Positions 3,981-8,021 of a DNA stretch of 43,512 nucleotides are shown one piece after another. Positions within the stretch are counted from its first letter, which is position 1. Each line of letters starts with the position of its first letter. Made by a program: the position numbers and the translations under genes. The notes beneath the pieces were generated by a model. The model did no database searches and was not told the DNA's origin. It worked only from the letters and a program-made list of their open reading frames with translations. Origin of the DNA: Lachnospiraceae bacterium (lineage in GTDB: Bacteria; Bacillota; Clostridia; Lachnospirales; Lachnospiraceae); contig JAUNGD010000026.1 in the NCBI GenBank assembly GCA_030524705.1, forward strand, positions 1 through 43,512. The letters run 5' to 3'.

Positions 3981-5567
3981 CTATCTTCCAAATTCTGAGA
4001 GTATCAGTCCCTCGTTTCTGTCAAGCACCATCCCCACGGACCAGCTATTGACAAACAGCAGCAGCGGACGGTCCTTCAAATCCTTGATCTTCTTCATGTC
4101 TGAGGTTCCCACAATCTTATTCAGGTCAATCTCCTCATTCTCGATCCAGCGGATGTGCTCATAGGGCAGGGTTTCCAGTCGAATATCCACATTATATTCA
4201 TTTTCCAGACGGTATTTCAACACGTCAAACTGAAGAACGCCGACGACTCCGACGATAATTTCCTCCATACCGGTATTGTATTCCTGGAAAATCTGGATCG
4301 CACCCTCCTGGGCGATCTGATTGATGCCCTTGACGAACTGCTTCCGCTTCATCGTATCCAGCTGCTTGACCCTCGCAAAATGCTCCGGCGCGAAGGTAGG
4401 AATGCCTTCGTATGCAAACTTCTTCCCCGGCATACAGATCGTATCGCCAATGGAAAAAATGCCCGGATCAAATACACCGATAATATCTCCGGCGTAGGCC
4501 TCGGACACGATGTGCCGTTCCTGAGCCATCATCTGCTGCGGCTGGGAAAGACGCTGCTTTCTGTCCCCCTGTACGTGATAAACCTCCATACCCGCGTCAA
4601 ATTTGCCGGAGCAAATACGCATAAAGGCGATCCTGTCTCTGTGGGCCTTATTCATGTTTGCCTGGATCTTGAACACGAAGGCAGAAAAATCCTCCTCCAT
4701 CGGGTCAATTACACCGCAGTCCGCAGTCCTGGGCAGCGGTGAAGTCGTCATCTGAAGGAAATGCTTCAAAAAGATCTCCACGCCAAAGTTTGTAAGAGCA
4801 GAGCCGAAAAATACCGGGGACAACTGCCCCTTGCTCACCAACTCCTGGTCAAATTCAGCAGAGGCTCCGTCCAGAAGCTCGATCTCCTCCAGCAGAGTTT
4901 CTTTATTCTGCGCGCCGATAAACTCCTCCAGCTCCGGTGCATCCACATCTATCTCCGTAGCCACCCCGGCCTTCGTTCCCTTCTGGGTATCGGTAAAGGT
5001 GGTCACCTTCCTGCTCGCCCGGTCATAGACACCCTTGAAATTCTTTCCTGAGCCAATCGGCCAGTTGATCGGGCAGGTGGCAATTCCCAGCTCCTTCTCA
5101 ATGTCATCCAGCAGCTCAAAGGTGTCGTTGGCATCCCGGTCCAGCTTATTAATAAAAGTAAAAATCGGAATATGGCGCATCACACATACCTTAAACAGCT
5201 TTCTCGTCTGCGCCTCCACGCCCTTCGATGCGTCGATCACCATTACCGCGGAGTCCGCCGCCATCAGCGTACGGTACGTATCCTCCGAGAAATCCTGATG
5301 TCCCGGCGTATCCAGAATATTGATACAGTATCCGCCGTAATTAAACTGCAATACGGAAGAAGTGACGGAAATACCTCTCTCCTTCTCAATCTCCATCCAG
5401 TCTGACACGGCATGTCTCGCCGTGGCCTTTCCTTTGACAGAGCCTGCCAGATTGATGGCTCCGCCGTAAAGCAGGAACTTCTCGGTCAGTGTCGTTTTAC
5501 CTGCATCCGGGTGTGAAATGATGGCAAAGGTCCGCCGCTTCGTAATCTCTTCTTTTATATTACCCAC
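3981..5567 (-). CDS. prfC: Peptide chain release factor 3
   Basis: RF3 is a GTPase that recycles RF1/RF2 from the ribosome. G-domain motifs are clear: AIISHPDAGKTTLTEK (P-loop), GISVTSSV (switch I), DTPGHQDFSEDTYR (G3, the DFSEDTYRTL extension is diagnostic of RF3), INKLDRD (G4). The 528 aa length is right. The GTG at 5567 has GGAGG eight bases upstream; the longer reading from a TTG at 5582 overlaps that ribosome site and is less likely. It is apparently monocistronic on the minus strand. Confidence 0.95.
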   Translation of the reverse strand: MGNIKEEITKRRTFAIISHPDAGKTTLTEKFLLYGGAINLAGSVKGKATARHAVSDWMEIEKERGISVTSSVLQFNYGGYCINILDTPGHQDFSEDTYRTLMAADSAVMVIDASKGVEAQTRKLFKVCVMRHIPIFTFINKLDRDANDTFELLDDIEKELGIATCPINWPIGSGKNFKGVYDRASRKVTTFTDTQKGTKAGVATEIDVDAPELEEFIGAQNKETLLEEIELLDGASAEFDQELVSKGQLSPVFFGSALTNFGVEIFLKHFLQMTTSPLPRTADCGVIDPMEEDFSAFVFKIQANMNKAHRDRIAFMRICSGKFDAGMEVYHVQGDRKQRLSQPQQMMAQERHIVSEAYAGDIIGVFDPGIFSIGDTICMPGKKFAYEGIPTFAPEHFARVKQLDTMKRKQFVKGINQIAQEGAIQIFQEYNTGMEEIIVGVVGVLQFDVLKYRLENEYNVDIRLETLPYEHIRWIENEEIDLNKIVGTSDMKKIKDLKDRPLLLFVNSWSVGMVLDRNEGLILSEFGR

Positions 5568-5703
5568 AGTATTTTCCTCCAACTGTTTTATCCTTGCCTA
5601 TTCTATCAAGGTTGGGAAAAGCTGTCAACGACCTGCCGGTGGATTTTTCAGGGATGGCCGGATACCCGGTTATTAGAGAAGAGTATTGGGTACTCGGACG
5701 CAA

Positions 5704-5841
5704 TGCTCGTGTGCGGTAAAGTATCACAAGAATTTGATTGATCGCAGCCCTGCTATTCCGTAAAGATAAAGGGAACTATATAGAAAATCGTTGGATAGCA
5801 TGATATACTTAACCCAATAACTGAGAGACAAATCGGGAGTT
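5704..5841 (+). repeat. Conserved 5' module, copy A
   Basis: Roughly 80 percent identical to 6530-6668 by eye. Shared blocks include GGTAAAGTATCACAAGAATT, CAGCCCTGCTATT, TAGAAAATCGTTGGA and AGAGACAAATCGGGA. No ORF lies inside it. The block GACAAATC (5827-5834) is exactly complementary to GATTTGTC at 6377-6384 on the far side of the gene, so the gene may sit in the loop of a long-range stem. Confidence 0.8.
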
Positions 5842-5918
5842 GTTAAAGACCCAATGTTACGATGGCATGATAAGCTTAATTTATGTCAGACGATAAATGA
5901 GAATATGGAGATAAAAAT

Positions 5919-6371
5919 ATGAGTAAATACACATATATCACTTTAAAAGACAGACCTCAATTAAAGGAACGAGCAGCTGCATGGTTTCATAGTAAATGGG
6001 AGGTGCCACAAGAAGCTTATCTTGAATGTATGGAAGCTTATCTCAATAACGAAACTGGCTATGGCTGGTACCTTTGCCTAGATGAGGATAAAGTTGTAGG
6101 AGGTCTTGGGGTAATAGAAAATGATTTTCATAACAGAAAAGACCTTACTCCTAATGTTTGTGCAGTATATACAGAAAAAGAATATCGCTGTAAAGGAATT
6201 GCAGGACATCTCCTTGATATTGTTGTAAATGATATGAAATCCAAAGGGATAACACCACTCTATTTAATAACCGACCATATAGGGTTCTATGAAAGATATG
6301 GTTGGGAATTTTTGTGCATGGTTCAGGGCGATGATAACCCTGACATGACAAGAATGTACATTCACAGATAA
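5919..6371 (+). CDS. GNAT family N-acetyltransferase (cargo of unit A)
   Basis: A 150 aa acetyl-CoA-dependent acyltransferase of unknown substrate. The GNAT fold is visible: GWYLCLDEDKVVGGLGVIEN (beta strands 2-4), NVCAVYTEKEYRCKGIAGHLL (motif A; the usual R/Q-x-x-G-x-G/A is CKGIAG), and the C-terminal LITDHIGFYERYGWEF. The ATG has GGAG eight bases upstream. The gene is clearly richer in AT than the flanking modules and the neighbouring chromosome, which suggests separate acquisition. It is the only ORF in its unit and is oriented the same way as the next cargo gene. Confidence 0.85.
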   Translation: MSKYTYITLKDRPQLKERAAAWFHSKWEVPQEAYLECMEAYLNNETGYGWYLCLDEDKVVGGLGVIENDFHNRKDLTPNVCAVYTEKEYRCKGIAGHLLDIVVNDMKSKGITPLYLITDHIGFYERYGWEFLCMVQGDDNPDMTRMYIHR

Positions 6372-6376
6372 ATTCA

Positions 6377-6529
6377 GATTTGTCGGGTAAATAGCAAAGC
6401 CGGCCGGGCCAGCGGGCGTTCAAGATGACTGGGCTTCGCCCGCCTCCCCACCCGGTTTTACAGGTAGGCATCCAAGGGGTGACAGCAAGGAATGCTGCTG
6501 CCCCTTGATACTTCTTTACCCTGCACCAA
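6377..6529 (+). repeat. Conserved 3' module, copy A
   Basis: Begins six bases after the GNAT stop. Shares with 7471-7634 the blocks TCGGGTAAATAGCAAA, GCCAGCGGGCG, CAGGTAGGCA, CCAAGGGG and TTGATACTTCTTT, ending CACCAA. The pairing AGCAAAGCCGG with CCGGTTTTAC has compensating base changes in copy B. A second hairpin CAAGGGG...CCCCTTG encloses TGACAGCA/TGCTG. It probably also serves as a transcription terminator. Confidence 0.8.
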
Positions 6530-6668
6530 TGCTCAGATGTGGTAAAGTATCACAAGAATTTGATAGACAACAGCCCTGCTATTTCGTAAAAATAAAGGGG
6601 AACGATGTAGAAAATCGTTGGAAAAGATGATATAGTTAACCCAAGTAATCAAGAGACAAATCGGGATT
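6530..6668 (+). repeat. Conserved 5' module, copy B
   Basis: Second copy of 5704-5841. A local hairpin AACGAT..ATCGTT (6600-6621) and a CCCT/AGGG pairing are possible here. Together with 6377-6529 this explains the whole 334-base stretch between the two cargo genes, which has no other gene. Confidence 0.8.
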
Positions 6669-6705
6669 GACCGCTGTAGTAGATGTTTTAGAGGAGACGT
6701 TAGAT

Positions 6706-7461
6706 ATGGATGCTTTAAATGATTTGCTTAAAAGTTTTGTCACACAAAGTAAAAATATATTAGGAGATAATTTGATTGGGATTTATCTTCATGGCTCTGC
6801 TGTTATGGGATGCTATAATGAGAAAAAAAGTGATATTGATTTGTTAGTTGTAGTAAAGGAAACTATTCCAAACAATGTAAAACATCGCTTCATGGATATG
6901 GTTGTAGAATTAAATACATATGCTCCTCCAAAAGGAATCGAACTAAGCATTGTTAAAAGAGGGGTATGCAATCCGTTTGTTTATCCGACACCTTTCGAAT
7001 TGCACTTTTCTATTGCACATTTAGAATGGTATAAAACCAATCCTTTAGATTATATTGATAAAATGAAGGGAACAGATAAAGATCTGGCGGCTCATCTTAC
7101 TATTATTTATCACAGGGGGAAATGTCTTTATGGAAACGATATCAAAGATGTCTTTGGAGCAGTCAGTAAAGAAGACTACTTTGATAGTATTTGGAGTGAT
7201 ATTGAGGAAGCTGAAACGGAAATAATGGATAATCCCACTTACATTATTCTAAACTTATGTAGAGTATTAGCATACAAAAAAGAAGAACTTATCCTGTCAA
7301 AACAGGAAGGTGGTAAATGGGGAATATGCAATGTCCCTGAAAAGTATCAAACTTTAATAGTACAGGCACTGGATGAATATTTATCTAATAAATCAACAGA
7401 ATGGGATGAAAATAATGCCCATGAATATGCTGCATATATGATAACACAGATAAGCAATTAG
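6706..7461 (+). CDS. Aminoglycoside-type nucleotidyltransferase (ANT/DUF4111 family; cargo of unit B)
   Basis: A 251 aa protein with the nucleotidyltransferase signature LHGSAVMGCYNEKKSDIDLL (GS, then DxD), as in spectinomycin/streptomycin adenylyltransferases of the ANT(9)/ANT(3'') group, and a helical C-terminal domain (ILNLCRVLAYKKEELILSKQEGGKW) also typical of that group. It would transfer AMP from ATP to a hydroxyl, but the substrate cannot be told from sequence. The ATG at 6706 has GAGGAG nine bases upstream; an upstream in-frame TTG at 6667 lies within the conserved module and is unlikely. AT-rich like the GNAT cargo, and in the same orientation. Confidence 0.82.
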   Translation: MDALNDLLKSFVTQSKNILGDNLIGIYLHGSAVMGCYNEKKSDIDLLVVVKETIPNNVKHRFMDMVVELNTYAPPKGIELSIVKRGVCNPFVYPTPFELHFSIAHLEWYKTNPLDYIDKMKGTDKDLAAHLTIIYHRGKCLYGNDIKDVFGAVSKEDYFDSIWSDIEEAETEIMDNPTYIILNLCRVLAYKKEELILSKQEGGKWGICNVPEKYQTLIVQALDEYLSNKSTEWDENNAHEYAAYMITQISN

Positions 7462-7470
7462 ATAAATTAA

Positions 7471-7634
7471 AGTTTATCGGGTAAATAGCAAACCCGGCCA
7501 AGCCAGCGGGCGGTCAATATGAACGGCTCTCCGAGCCGACTACAGCCCCGCCCGGCTTTGCAGGTAGGCAGCCAAGGGGCGACAGTAAAAAAGTGCTGCC
7601 GCTCGTTTTTTGATACTTCTTTGCCCTTCACCAA
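7471..7634 (+). repeat. Conserved 3' module, copy B
   Basis: Second copy of 6377-6529, with AGCAAACCCGG pairing with CCGGCTTTGC. The internal hairpin around 7573-7610 is less perfect than in copy A. Confidence 0.78.
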
Positions 7635-7637
7635 GAG

Positions 7638-8021
7638 TCAGGAAATATCGCAGCTGTCTATACTGCCGAGCTCCGGGTTGCCGTCGAGACTCTGGGTGTT
7701 CAGCGTCCTCCGGTGCAGTCTCTCGGCCTCTGACTGCCTCAGAATATAGTCCTTGATCTCCTTTGCATTTTTGATATGCATGATGCGAAGGTCCGGATCG
7801 GTCACGTCGCTGCTGAAGCAGTGTACCGTCCCCAGCCCGAAGATCCGCTCCAGCAGGCTTGTCTCCAGACGCACATCCACAATTTTGTACATGTAGCAGT
7901 CGTTCTCCACCCGCTTTAAAAATCCTGCGTTTACTGTGATAATCTCCTCTGAGACCGTGTATTTCGTAAAGGTCCAGGGCAGCCCAAGAAACGGCCACCT
8001 CTTTTTTTCTGTATATGCCAT
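7638..8021 (-). CDS. Bacterial PH-domain (YdbT/bPH_2-like) protein
   Basis: 127 aa. The core FTKYTVSEEIITVNAGFLKRVENDCYMYKIVDVRL, followed by LLERIFGLGTVHCFSSDVTDPDLRIMHIKNAKEIKDYI, matches the bacterial PH fold family, in which a small beta-barrel domain is followed by a short helix. No membrane segment is present, so it is a cytosolic single-domain form. AGGAGG precedes the ATG. The last residues (NPELGSIDSCDIS) end four bases from the edge of cassette-like unit B, so the native C-terminus might have been altered by that insertion. Function unknown. Confidence 0.75.
   Translation of the reverse strand: MAYTEKKRWPFLGLPWTFTKYTVSEEIITVNAGFLKRVENDCYMYKIVDVRLETSLLERIFGLGTVHCFSSDVTDPDLRIMHIKNAKEIKDYILRQSEAERLHRRTLNTQSLDGNPELGSIDSCDIS

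Follow-up and report, generated by a model that had tools for sequence, protein, structure and literature searches.

Here we describe two short units of DNA that abut each other in a 43,512-nucleotide stretch of a Lachnospiraceae bacterium genome (GenBank assembly GCA_030524705.1, contig JAUNGD010000026.1), referred to below as the window. They lie between a putative prfC-type gene, named as in the sequence-only reading from which this work started, and a gene for a bacterial PH-domain protein (Table 1). That reading had claimed two adjoining units in which common 5' and 3' modules enclose unrelated genes, and the alignments place them exactly there. In searches of the window's own genome the two 5' modules are 85-86% identical (E=6e-36) and the two 3' modules 78% identical (E=1.8e-27); each unit opens with TGCTC and closes with CACCAA, CAA precedes the first, and the domain profile matches of the enclosed genes are unrelated, GNAT in one unit and ANT(9)-like in the other. 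The 5' module is composite: its first ~58 bases match the left edges of larger elements in other genomes, and bases 59-138 are found in cassettes only.

Each window unit contains one plausible gene and, as judged from ORFs and domain matches, neither a serine recombinase nor a relaxase; no gene of either kind was seen within any unit described below. The gene of unit 2 begins with ATG at 6706, with an upstream TTG at 6667. Its protein, a distant ANT(9)/AadA relative, scores well below the NCBIfam cut-offs (102.6 bits against ANT_9, cut-off 340), so that a role in resistance is no more than a possibility.

Table 1. Features of the two units and their surroundings (positions in the window)
Feature	Position	Strand	Basis
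Left neighbour, putative prfC-type gene	3981..5582	-	ORF
AA dinucleotide ahead of unit 1, putative crossover core	5702..5703	.	sequence
Cassette unit 1 (GNAT)	5704..6529	+	module alignments
Unit 1 putative left att arm, common to larger IME-type elements	5704..5761	+	matches in 27/397 family genomes
Unit 1 cassette-specific promoter/leader-like stretch	5762..5841	+	module comparison
GNAT-family acetyltransferase ORF, 150 aa	5919..6371	+	PF00583, E=1.9e-11
Unit 1 3' module: inverted-repeat stretch, hairpin about 6473-6506, without T-run	6377..6504	+	
Unit 1 putative right att arm, TTGATACTTCTTTACCCTGCACCAA	6505..6529	+	
Tandem junction, right arm - AA - left arm, imperfect dyad	6505..6553	.	sequence
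Cassette unit 2 (ANT-type)	6530..7634	+	module alignments
Unit 2 putative left att arm	6530..6587	+	module alignment
Unit 2 promoter/leader-like stretch, hexamers within 6608-6636	6588..6666	+	
ANT(9)/AadA-like nucleotidyltransferase, 251 aa from ATG	6706..7461	+	AadA_C PF13427, E=1.3e-30
Unit 2 3' module: inverted-repeat stretch, hairpin about 7576-7606, then T6 (terminator-like)	7473..7609	+	
Unit 2 putative right att arm, TTGATACTTCTTTGCCCTTCACCAA	7610..7634	+	
Right chromosomal target arm, attB-like	7635..7655	.	attB model rank fraction 0.0002
Right neighbour, bacterial PH-domain gene (bPH_2)	7638..8021	-	domain match; 3 bases from insert

The same reading had proposed that related strains be compared for an empty junction between prfC and the PH gene. 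Among the 46 genomes of the genus that were searched, 21, the window's own included, have the PH gene, and the insert has no match in any of the 20 relatives. In 15 of these prfC adjoins the PH gene directly, across an intergenic stretch of varying sequence; in the other five the prfC segment gave no match. This comparison is one at the level of species, at which the relatives have diverged so far that no base-exact junction can be obtained. Neither a same-species empty site nor a circular form was seen.

Recurrence of the units

It had been allowed for that the modules might occur around these two genes alone; instead, they recur around other genes in other genomes. Units and fragments together number at least 17, spread over five genomes or records: five in the window's own genome (G000), three each in G481 and G482, four in G859 and two in a viral contig (G480). 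Both ends are visible in eight units, and for 13 the cargo, whether one gene or a set, can be named or its limits given; these cargoes are all different, three having an HTH_3 domain. Domain matches revealed no ribosomal-protection tetracycline gene among the cargo of the cassettes.

A scan of genome contigs with a generalised left-end pattern, in which AA was required, yielded at least 119 loci, many of them ending downstream, and at least three of these bear cassettes. L168 is a single cassette with a 154-aa ORF that has no Pfam match; L138 is a tandem in which a unit with an HTH/zinc-ribbon gene (L138u1) is joined to one with three ORFs (L138u2), so single-gene content is not universal; and L190 is a tandem of a DUF1697 gene and a P-loop-kinase-like ORF, the latter broken by the contig end. 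On the viral contig L098 a DUF3788 cassette is joined to the beginning of a second one (L098b). Searches of the genomes behind the cassette loci added a cassette with an 83-aa ORF (L233), two degenerate units, one of them with a glycosyl hydrolase 46 gene (L234), a cassette with a 66-aa ORF (L298) and a cut unit (L297). In the window's own genome, contig C132 holds a further cassette piece with an Rce1-like protease gene, and C111 a gene for an HTH protein, followed by a junction and a cut unit. Degeneration is visible in L234, C132, L098a and the left arm of L138u1; that arm, like the right ends of L233 and L298, was read by eye, outside the fuzzy search.

Six tandem junctions were found, in the window, L235, L138, L098, L190 and L234, that of L234 being damaged. 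Contigs end in or beside units in L190, L098, L297, C111 and C132, which suggests that the arrays are longer than assembled, and short-read assemblies seem to break at such units.

A pattern for the right end, run over 397 genomes of the family and 391 of the class, found real ends in the window's own genome only; it also misses diverged ends such as that of C111, and seven rows from other genomes that had no locus were left out. By this pattern cassettes look rare in the sampled genomes. Its match in G359 was rejected as a chance match inside an ORF, and the two matches in viral contigs lie near neither a left end nor a module. L221, examined as a candidate, holds no cassette.

The left arm and the IME family

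The left arm has matches in 27 of the 397 family genomes (scoring was limited to the best two candidates in each genome), that is, in 26 besides the window's own. In these 26 the sequence upstream of the arm varies from site to site and its last base is A; AA stands before 22 of the left ends and GA or TA before the other four. At 12 of the 26 places the upstream sequence is the same kind of ORF, which we take to be Maff2 of an ICE. This fits the published family IME_Rho_tet, for which the main text of PMC12904643 assigns 45% of the insertion sites that could be resolved to MAFF2 ORFs and describes inverted terminal repeats, a serine recombinase and a right boundary 81-90 bp past the stop of the recombinase gene.

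Stretches of up to 20 kb were taken at 20 left-end places. At seven, a serine recombinase gene is followed by an IME right end close to ACTTCTTTATCNCACATNAGYA; the filter found no such pair at the other 13, where some stretches are cut. At four places cargo, a sigma-like ORF, a relaxase and a serine recombinase follow one another in the same direction, and the 3' module sits between the cargo and the sigma-like ORF. L054, the one locus of the seven that was checked for domains, has Pfam matches to both a serine recombinase and a relaxase. By layout, the larger elements with this left edge fit the IME_Rho_tet family as presented in the main text of PMC12904643, and the layout together with the Maff2 sites suggests that the left arm corresponds to its published 5' TIR.

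The pair of units as a whole has no match in the plasmid or phage collections; the left arm alone has two matches in each. The conjugative plasmid pKUB3006-3 of Enterococcus faecalis has, at L103:8001-8060, an IME left arm copy of 83.6% identity, with a predicted tet(M) gene downstream of it. Four IMG/VR contigs classed as viral (L096, L097, L101 and L102) have an IME left arm that belongs to the TATCACAAGAAAATTATG type, and IME-type elements may therefore sit in or beside prophage-like regions. L218 and L223 have two left-end matches each, about 4.9 and 3.7 kb apart, possibly representing nested elements.

Cargo offers a second point of contact. Four of the 16 cargo ORFs tested have close counterparts (80-87% identity) in IME-type loci: the HTH/zinc-ribbon gene of L138u1 (87% to L124, L144, L166, L169 and L218), the HTH protein of C111 (80% to L041), the HTH gene of L138u2 (81% to L154 and L180) and the DUF3788 gene of L098 (83% to L118, in which the gene is found past the module). 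No close counterpart exists there for the other 12, both window genes included. In most of the counterpart loci (8 kb) no recombinase is visible. The cargo pools of cassettes and IMEs thus overlap in part. By eye, the 66-aa ORF of L298 (2816-3013, minus strand) starts like a methyltransferase found beside the 3' module in L008 and L009.

The right arm and the choice of target

Cassette right ends resemble TTGRTACTTCTTTRCCCTGTRCC-AA to varying degrees, those of L233 and L298 least, and differ from the right arm of the seven IMEs examined. The logo of the target arms reads CCYKG, four free bases, AA. From 121 flanks (36 Maff2, 85 others) we derived an attB model, trained on the 85 non-Maff2 flanks; repeated loci, cassette loci and flanks without AA or with N were excluded, and the positions were picked on a logo still containing six cassette flanks. 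In a held-out half, 76% of 42 flanks fall in the top 5%. Of the 12 chromosomal arms that flank cassettes, eight are placed among the top 8% of AA sites (Fisher p=9e-13, with the arms taken as independent), four of them within the top 0.2%. In the window, the left chromosomal arm reaches a rank fraction of 0.08. The model does not accommodate the left flanks of L138u1 (0.76) and L298 (0.40), and the right flanks of L138u2 and L298 fit weakly, near 0.1. As cassette flanks fit the attB model, a recombinase of the same kind probably chose the sites at which the units inserted. The arms also have features of large-serine-recombinase substrates, being arranged around a 2-bp core and following one target motif, from which two arms clearly depart.

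According to Rutherford et al. (PMC3783163), the distance between the zinc-domain motif TTTAGTATC and the core is shorter by 5 bp in attB than it is in attP. By our own count, cassette left arms have TAAAGTATC at about the attP distance. The inner motif scores 6.0, the full attB-type value, in seven of nine right arms tested and 1.0, -1.3 and -0.5 in three attP-type arms, with 99% of random scores below 4.1. The best shift of the zinc motif is 4 for the majority of right arms, 5 or 7 for left arms and 2 for the IME right arm; the shift score exceeds the 99% random level (3.5) in C132 only (3.9). In the whole-arm attB model, 10 of 11 cassette right ends fall in the top 8%. The idea that the cassette right end is a pure attB-type arm was dropped, its outer motif being nearer to the attP spacing by eye. 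If the right arm resembles an attB half-site, each insertion would renew the target, which could explain the arrays.

The promoter-like stretch, the 3' module and the origin of the units

Bases 59-138 of the 5' module contain an extended -10-like TGATATACT in most copies. In unit 1 of the window, TAGAAA starts at 5781 and TATACT ends at 5809, with TG ahead. The match to the promoter consensus, here as in general, is no better than in shuffles; the weight of this stretch comes from its conservation around different genes.

As read by eye, the hairpin region of the 3' module is followed by at least five T in seven of 12 units with a right end (window unit 2, C132, C111, L168, L233, L234 and L298); window unit 1, L190a, L098a and both L138 units are without this combination. 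Folding z values are -2.0 (window unit 2), -3.2 (C132), -6.2 (L168), -3.3 (L298) and -1.5 (window unit 1, folded in part), and a terminator scan flagged no plus-strand sites at the modules. In a Candidatus Ruthenibacterium merdavium MAG (L183:52-267) the inverted repeat of the 3' module forms a nearly perfect long palindrome; this palindrome, found in both orientations, suggests that the repeat may derive from a palindromic element that was formerly independent.

The same parts of the units bear on the strongest alternative, that they are decayed IMEs (CIMEs): left remnants after deletion of the core, stacked into tandems by accretion and now immobile. The left arm and the 3' module are IME parts flanking a cargo slot, some cargo is common to IME-type loci, several units are degenerate as listed above, and the promoter-like stretch is missing from six of the 17 (two each in L138, C111 and L234). 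Accretion of CIMEs is among the processes described in PMC5704250, and the main text of PMC12904643 counts 1,090 partial elements, found by way of tetracycline genes, which might include similar remnants. However, the promoter-like stretch is common to 11 of the 17 units and occurs in no IME locus among the 302 loci compared (E<=1e-5), the cassette right ends are alike among themselves and unlike those of the seven IMEs, and independent deletions are not expected to leave the same backbone. We hold this explanation to be rather unlikely.

Far less probable is that the pair arose by local duplication in one lineage, with later replacement of a gene through homologous recombination across the repeats. 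Its product would be two adjoining copies whose borders are conserved, and homologous exchange may still account for the change of cargo, but the 5' module of unit 1 is nearer to those of L168 (92%) and L098b (93% over 111 positions of a cut unit) than to that of unit 2 (86%), and tandems with other genes exist in L138, L098 and L190; the duplication is thereby largely refuted.

The earlier suggestion that the modules form an RNA carrying the ORF, as a structured RNA or intron-like element would, fared badly and is hardly credible. Single 3' modules fold well, and in the alignment of 38 of 52 copies (reversed, truncated and degenerate ones left out) both partners have changed in one or more of the 38 sequences at eight of the 15 pairs predicted; against this, the covariation term is only -0.35 kcal/mol, two pairs are disrupted in three cassettes, L298 has lost the stem by deletion, and there is no Rfam match at E<=1 in window positions 5400-8000 and, in six loci, there are just two weak microRNA-family matches, both outside the modules. 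Integron gene cassettes moved by a tyrosine integrase would likewise give head-to-tail ORFs in one orientation with site-like ends, yet the left end matches those of serine-recombinase IMEs and direct reading confirms that no GTTRRRY core lies near the unit boundaries, which makes this origin practically negligible.

A model for mobilization

We think it fairly likely that the units are non-autonomous mobile expression cassettes, related to IME_Rho_tet and inserted at attB-like sites by a serine recombinase supplied in trans. Arguing for this reading are the anatomy of the units, their recurrence with different cargo, the IME-like left end, the attB-like flanks and the species-level absence from relatives; the action of the recombinase, its supply in trans, promoter and terminator function and present activity are presumed. 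A mobile cassette system mobilised in trans had already been suggested in the sequence-only reading: recurrence with other genes and absence from relatives bear out the first half, and movement would be in trans because the units contain no mobility gene. New here are the left end of a serine-recombinase IME family and, in most units, a promoter-like stretch of their own.

In the proposed order, a cassette would consist of a left att arm, a promoter and leader, an exchangeable gene, an inverted-repeat 3' module, closed in some copies by a terminator-like hairpin, and a right att arm, on a backbone whose lineage would be akin to integrative mobilizable elements of the IME_Rho_tet type. Insertion would occur at attB-like sites (CCYKG-N4-AA), most likely through a large serine recombinase provided in trans by an IME, and insertion next to an existing cassette would create head-to-tail arrays. 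None of 17 recombinase loci inspected has a cassette-type right end; they come from 27 matches in G000, G481 and G482, the other ten matches and G859 and G480 being outside this count. Two serine-recombinase-like matches in the window's own genome (contigs C123 and C107; L070 and L072) have one internal TAG each and are possibly decayed copies.

Tentatively, one may go further and see in the units a serine-recombinase counterpart of integron cassettes: promoter-bearing and gene-capturing, spread by IME recombinases and forming arrays through a right arm that mimics attB. We file them as mini-IME/CIME-like gene cassettes in arrays.

If the preferred reading of trans-mobilised expression cassettes is correct, gut Clostridia would possess a miniature version of their mobile elements, equipped with its own promoter but with no mobility genes, that carries and spreads genes, distant relatives of resistance genes among them. 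Annotation keyed on recombinase or relaxase genes would overlook such units, and the entry of new genes into mobile cassettes would become a testable question outside integrons.

Comparison with known systems

Titles and abstracts in the literature, closed journals being outside this scope, yielded nothing on such cassettes. The nearest relatives are the IME_Rho_tet elements as presented in PMC12904643, with which the units have in common the left end, cargo just inside it, serine recombination and hosts among gut Clostridia. Unlike these elements, they have no recombinase, relaxase or sigma-like ORF and a different right end; most carry a promoter-like stretch of their own, they mostly hold one gene, they occur in tandems, and their targets seen so far lie outside Maff2. 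The words 'tandem', 'in trans' and 'accretion' do not occur in the main text of PMC12904643. With CIMEs, as far as they are characterised in the relevant part of PMC5704250, the units agree in having no integration or transfer genes, two (here putative) att ends and tandems with related elements; they differ in presenting a similar backbone with many cargoes that recurs across genomes, four of the five having it at more than one site. The tet(W) genetic cassettes of Kazimierczak et al. (2006), known here through the main text of PMC12904643, which equates them with IME_Rho_tet, also have conserved flanks around a resistance gene.

The recombinase of the IME L054 shows a sub-threshold similarity to CcrB of SCC islands (94.8 bits, cut-off 900). 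Composite SCC islands, which Ccr serine recombinases move, are tandems whose elements meet at att sites; they exceed the cassettes described here in size and insert at a single chromosomal site, whereas the cassettes occupy several. Integron gene cassettes, finally, are interchangeable genes in head-to-tail arrays, as in these units, but the present cassettes are without attC core sites at their boundaries and are distinguished by serine-type ends and an internal promoter-like stretch.
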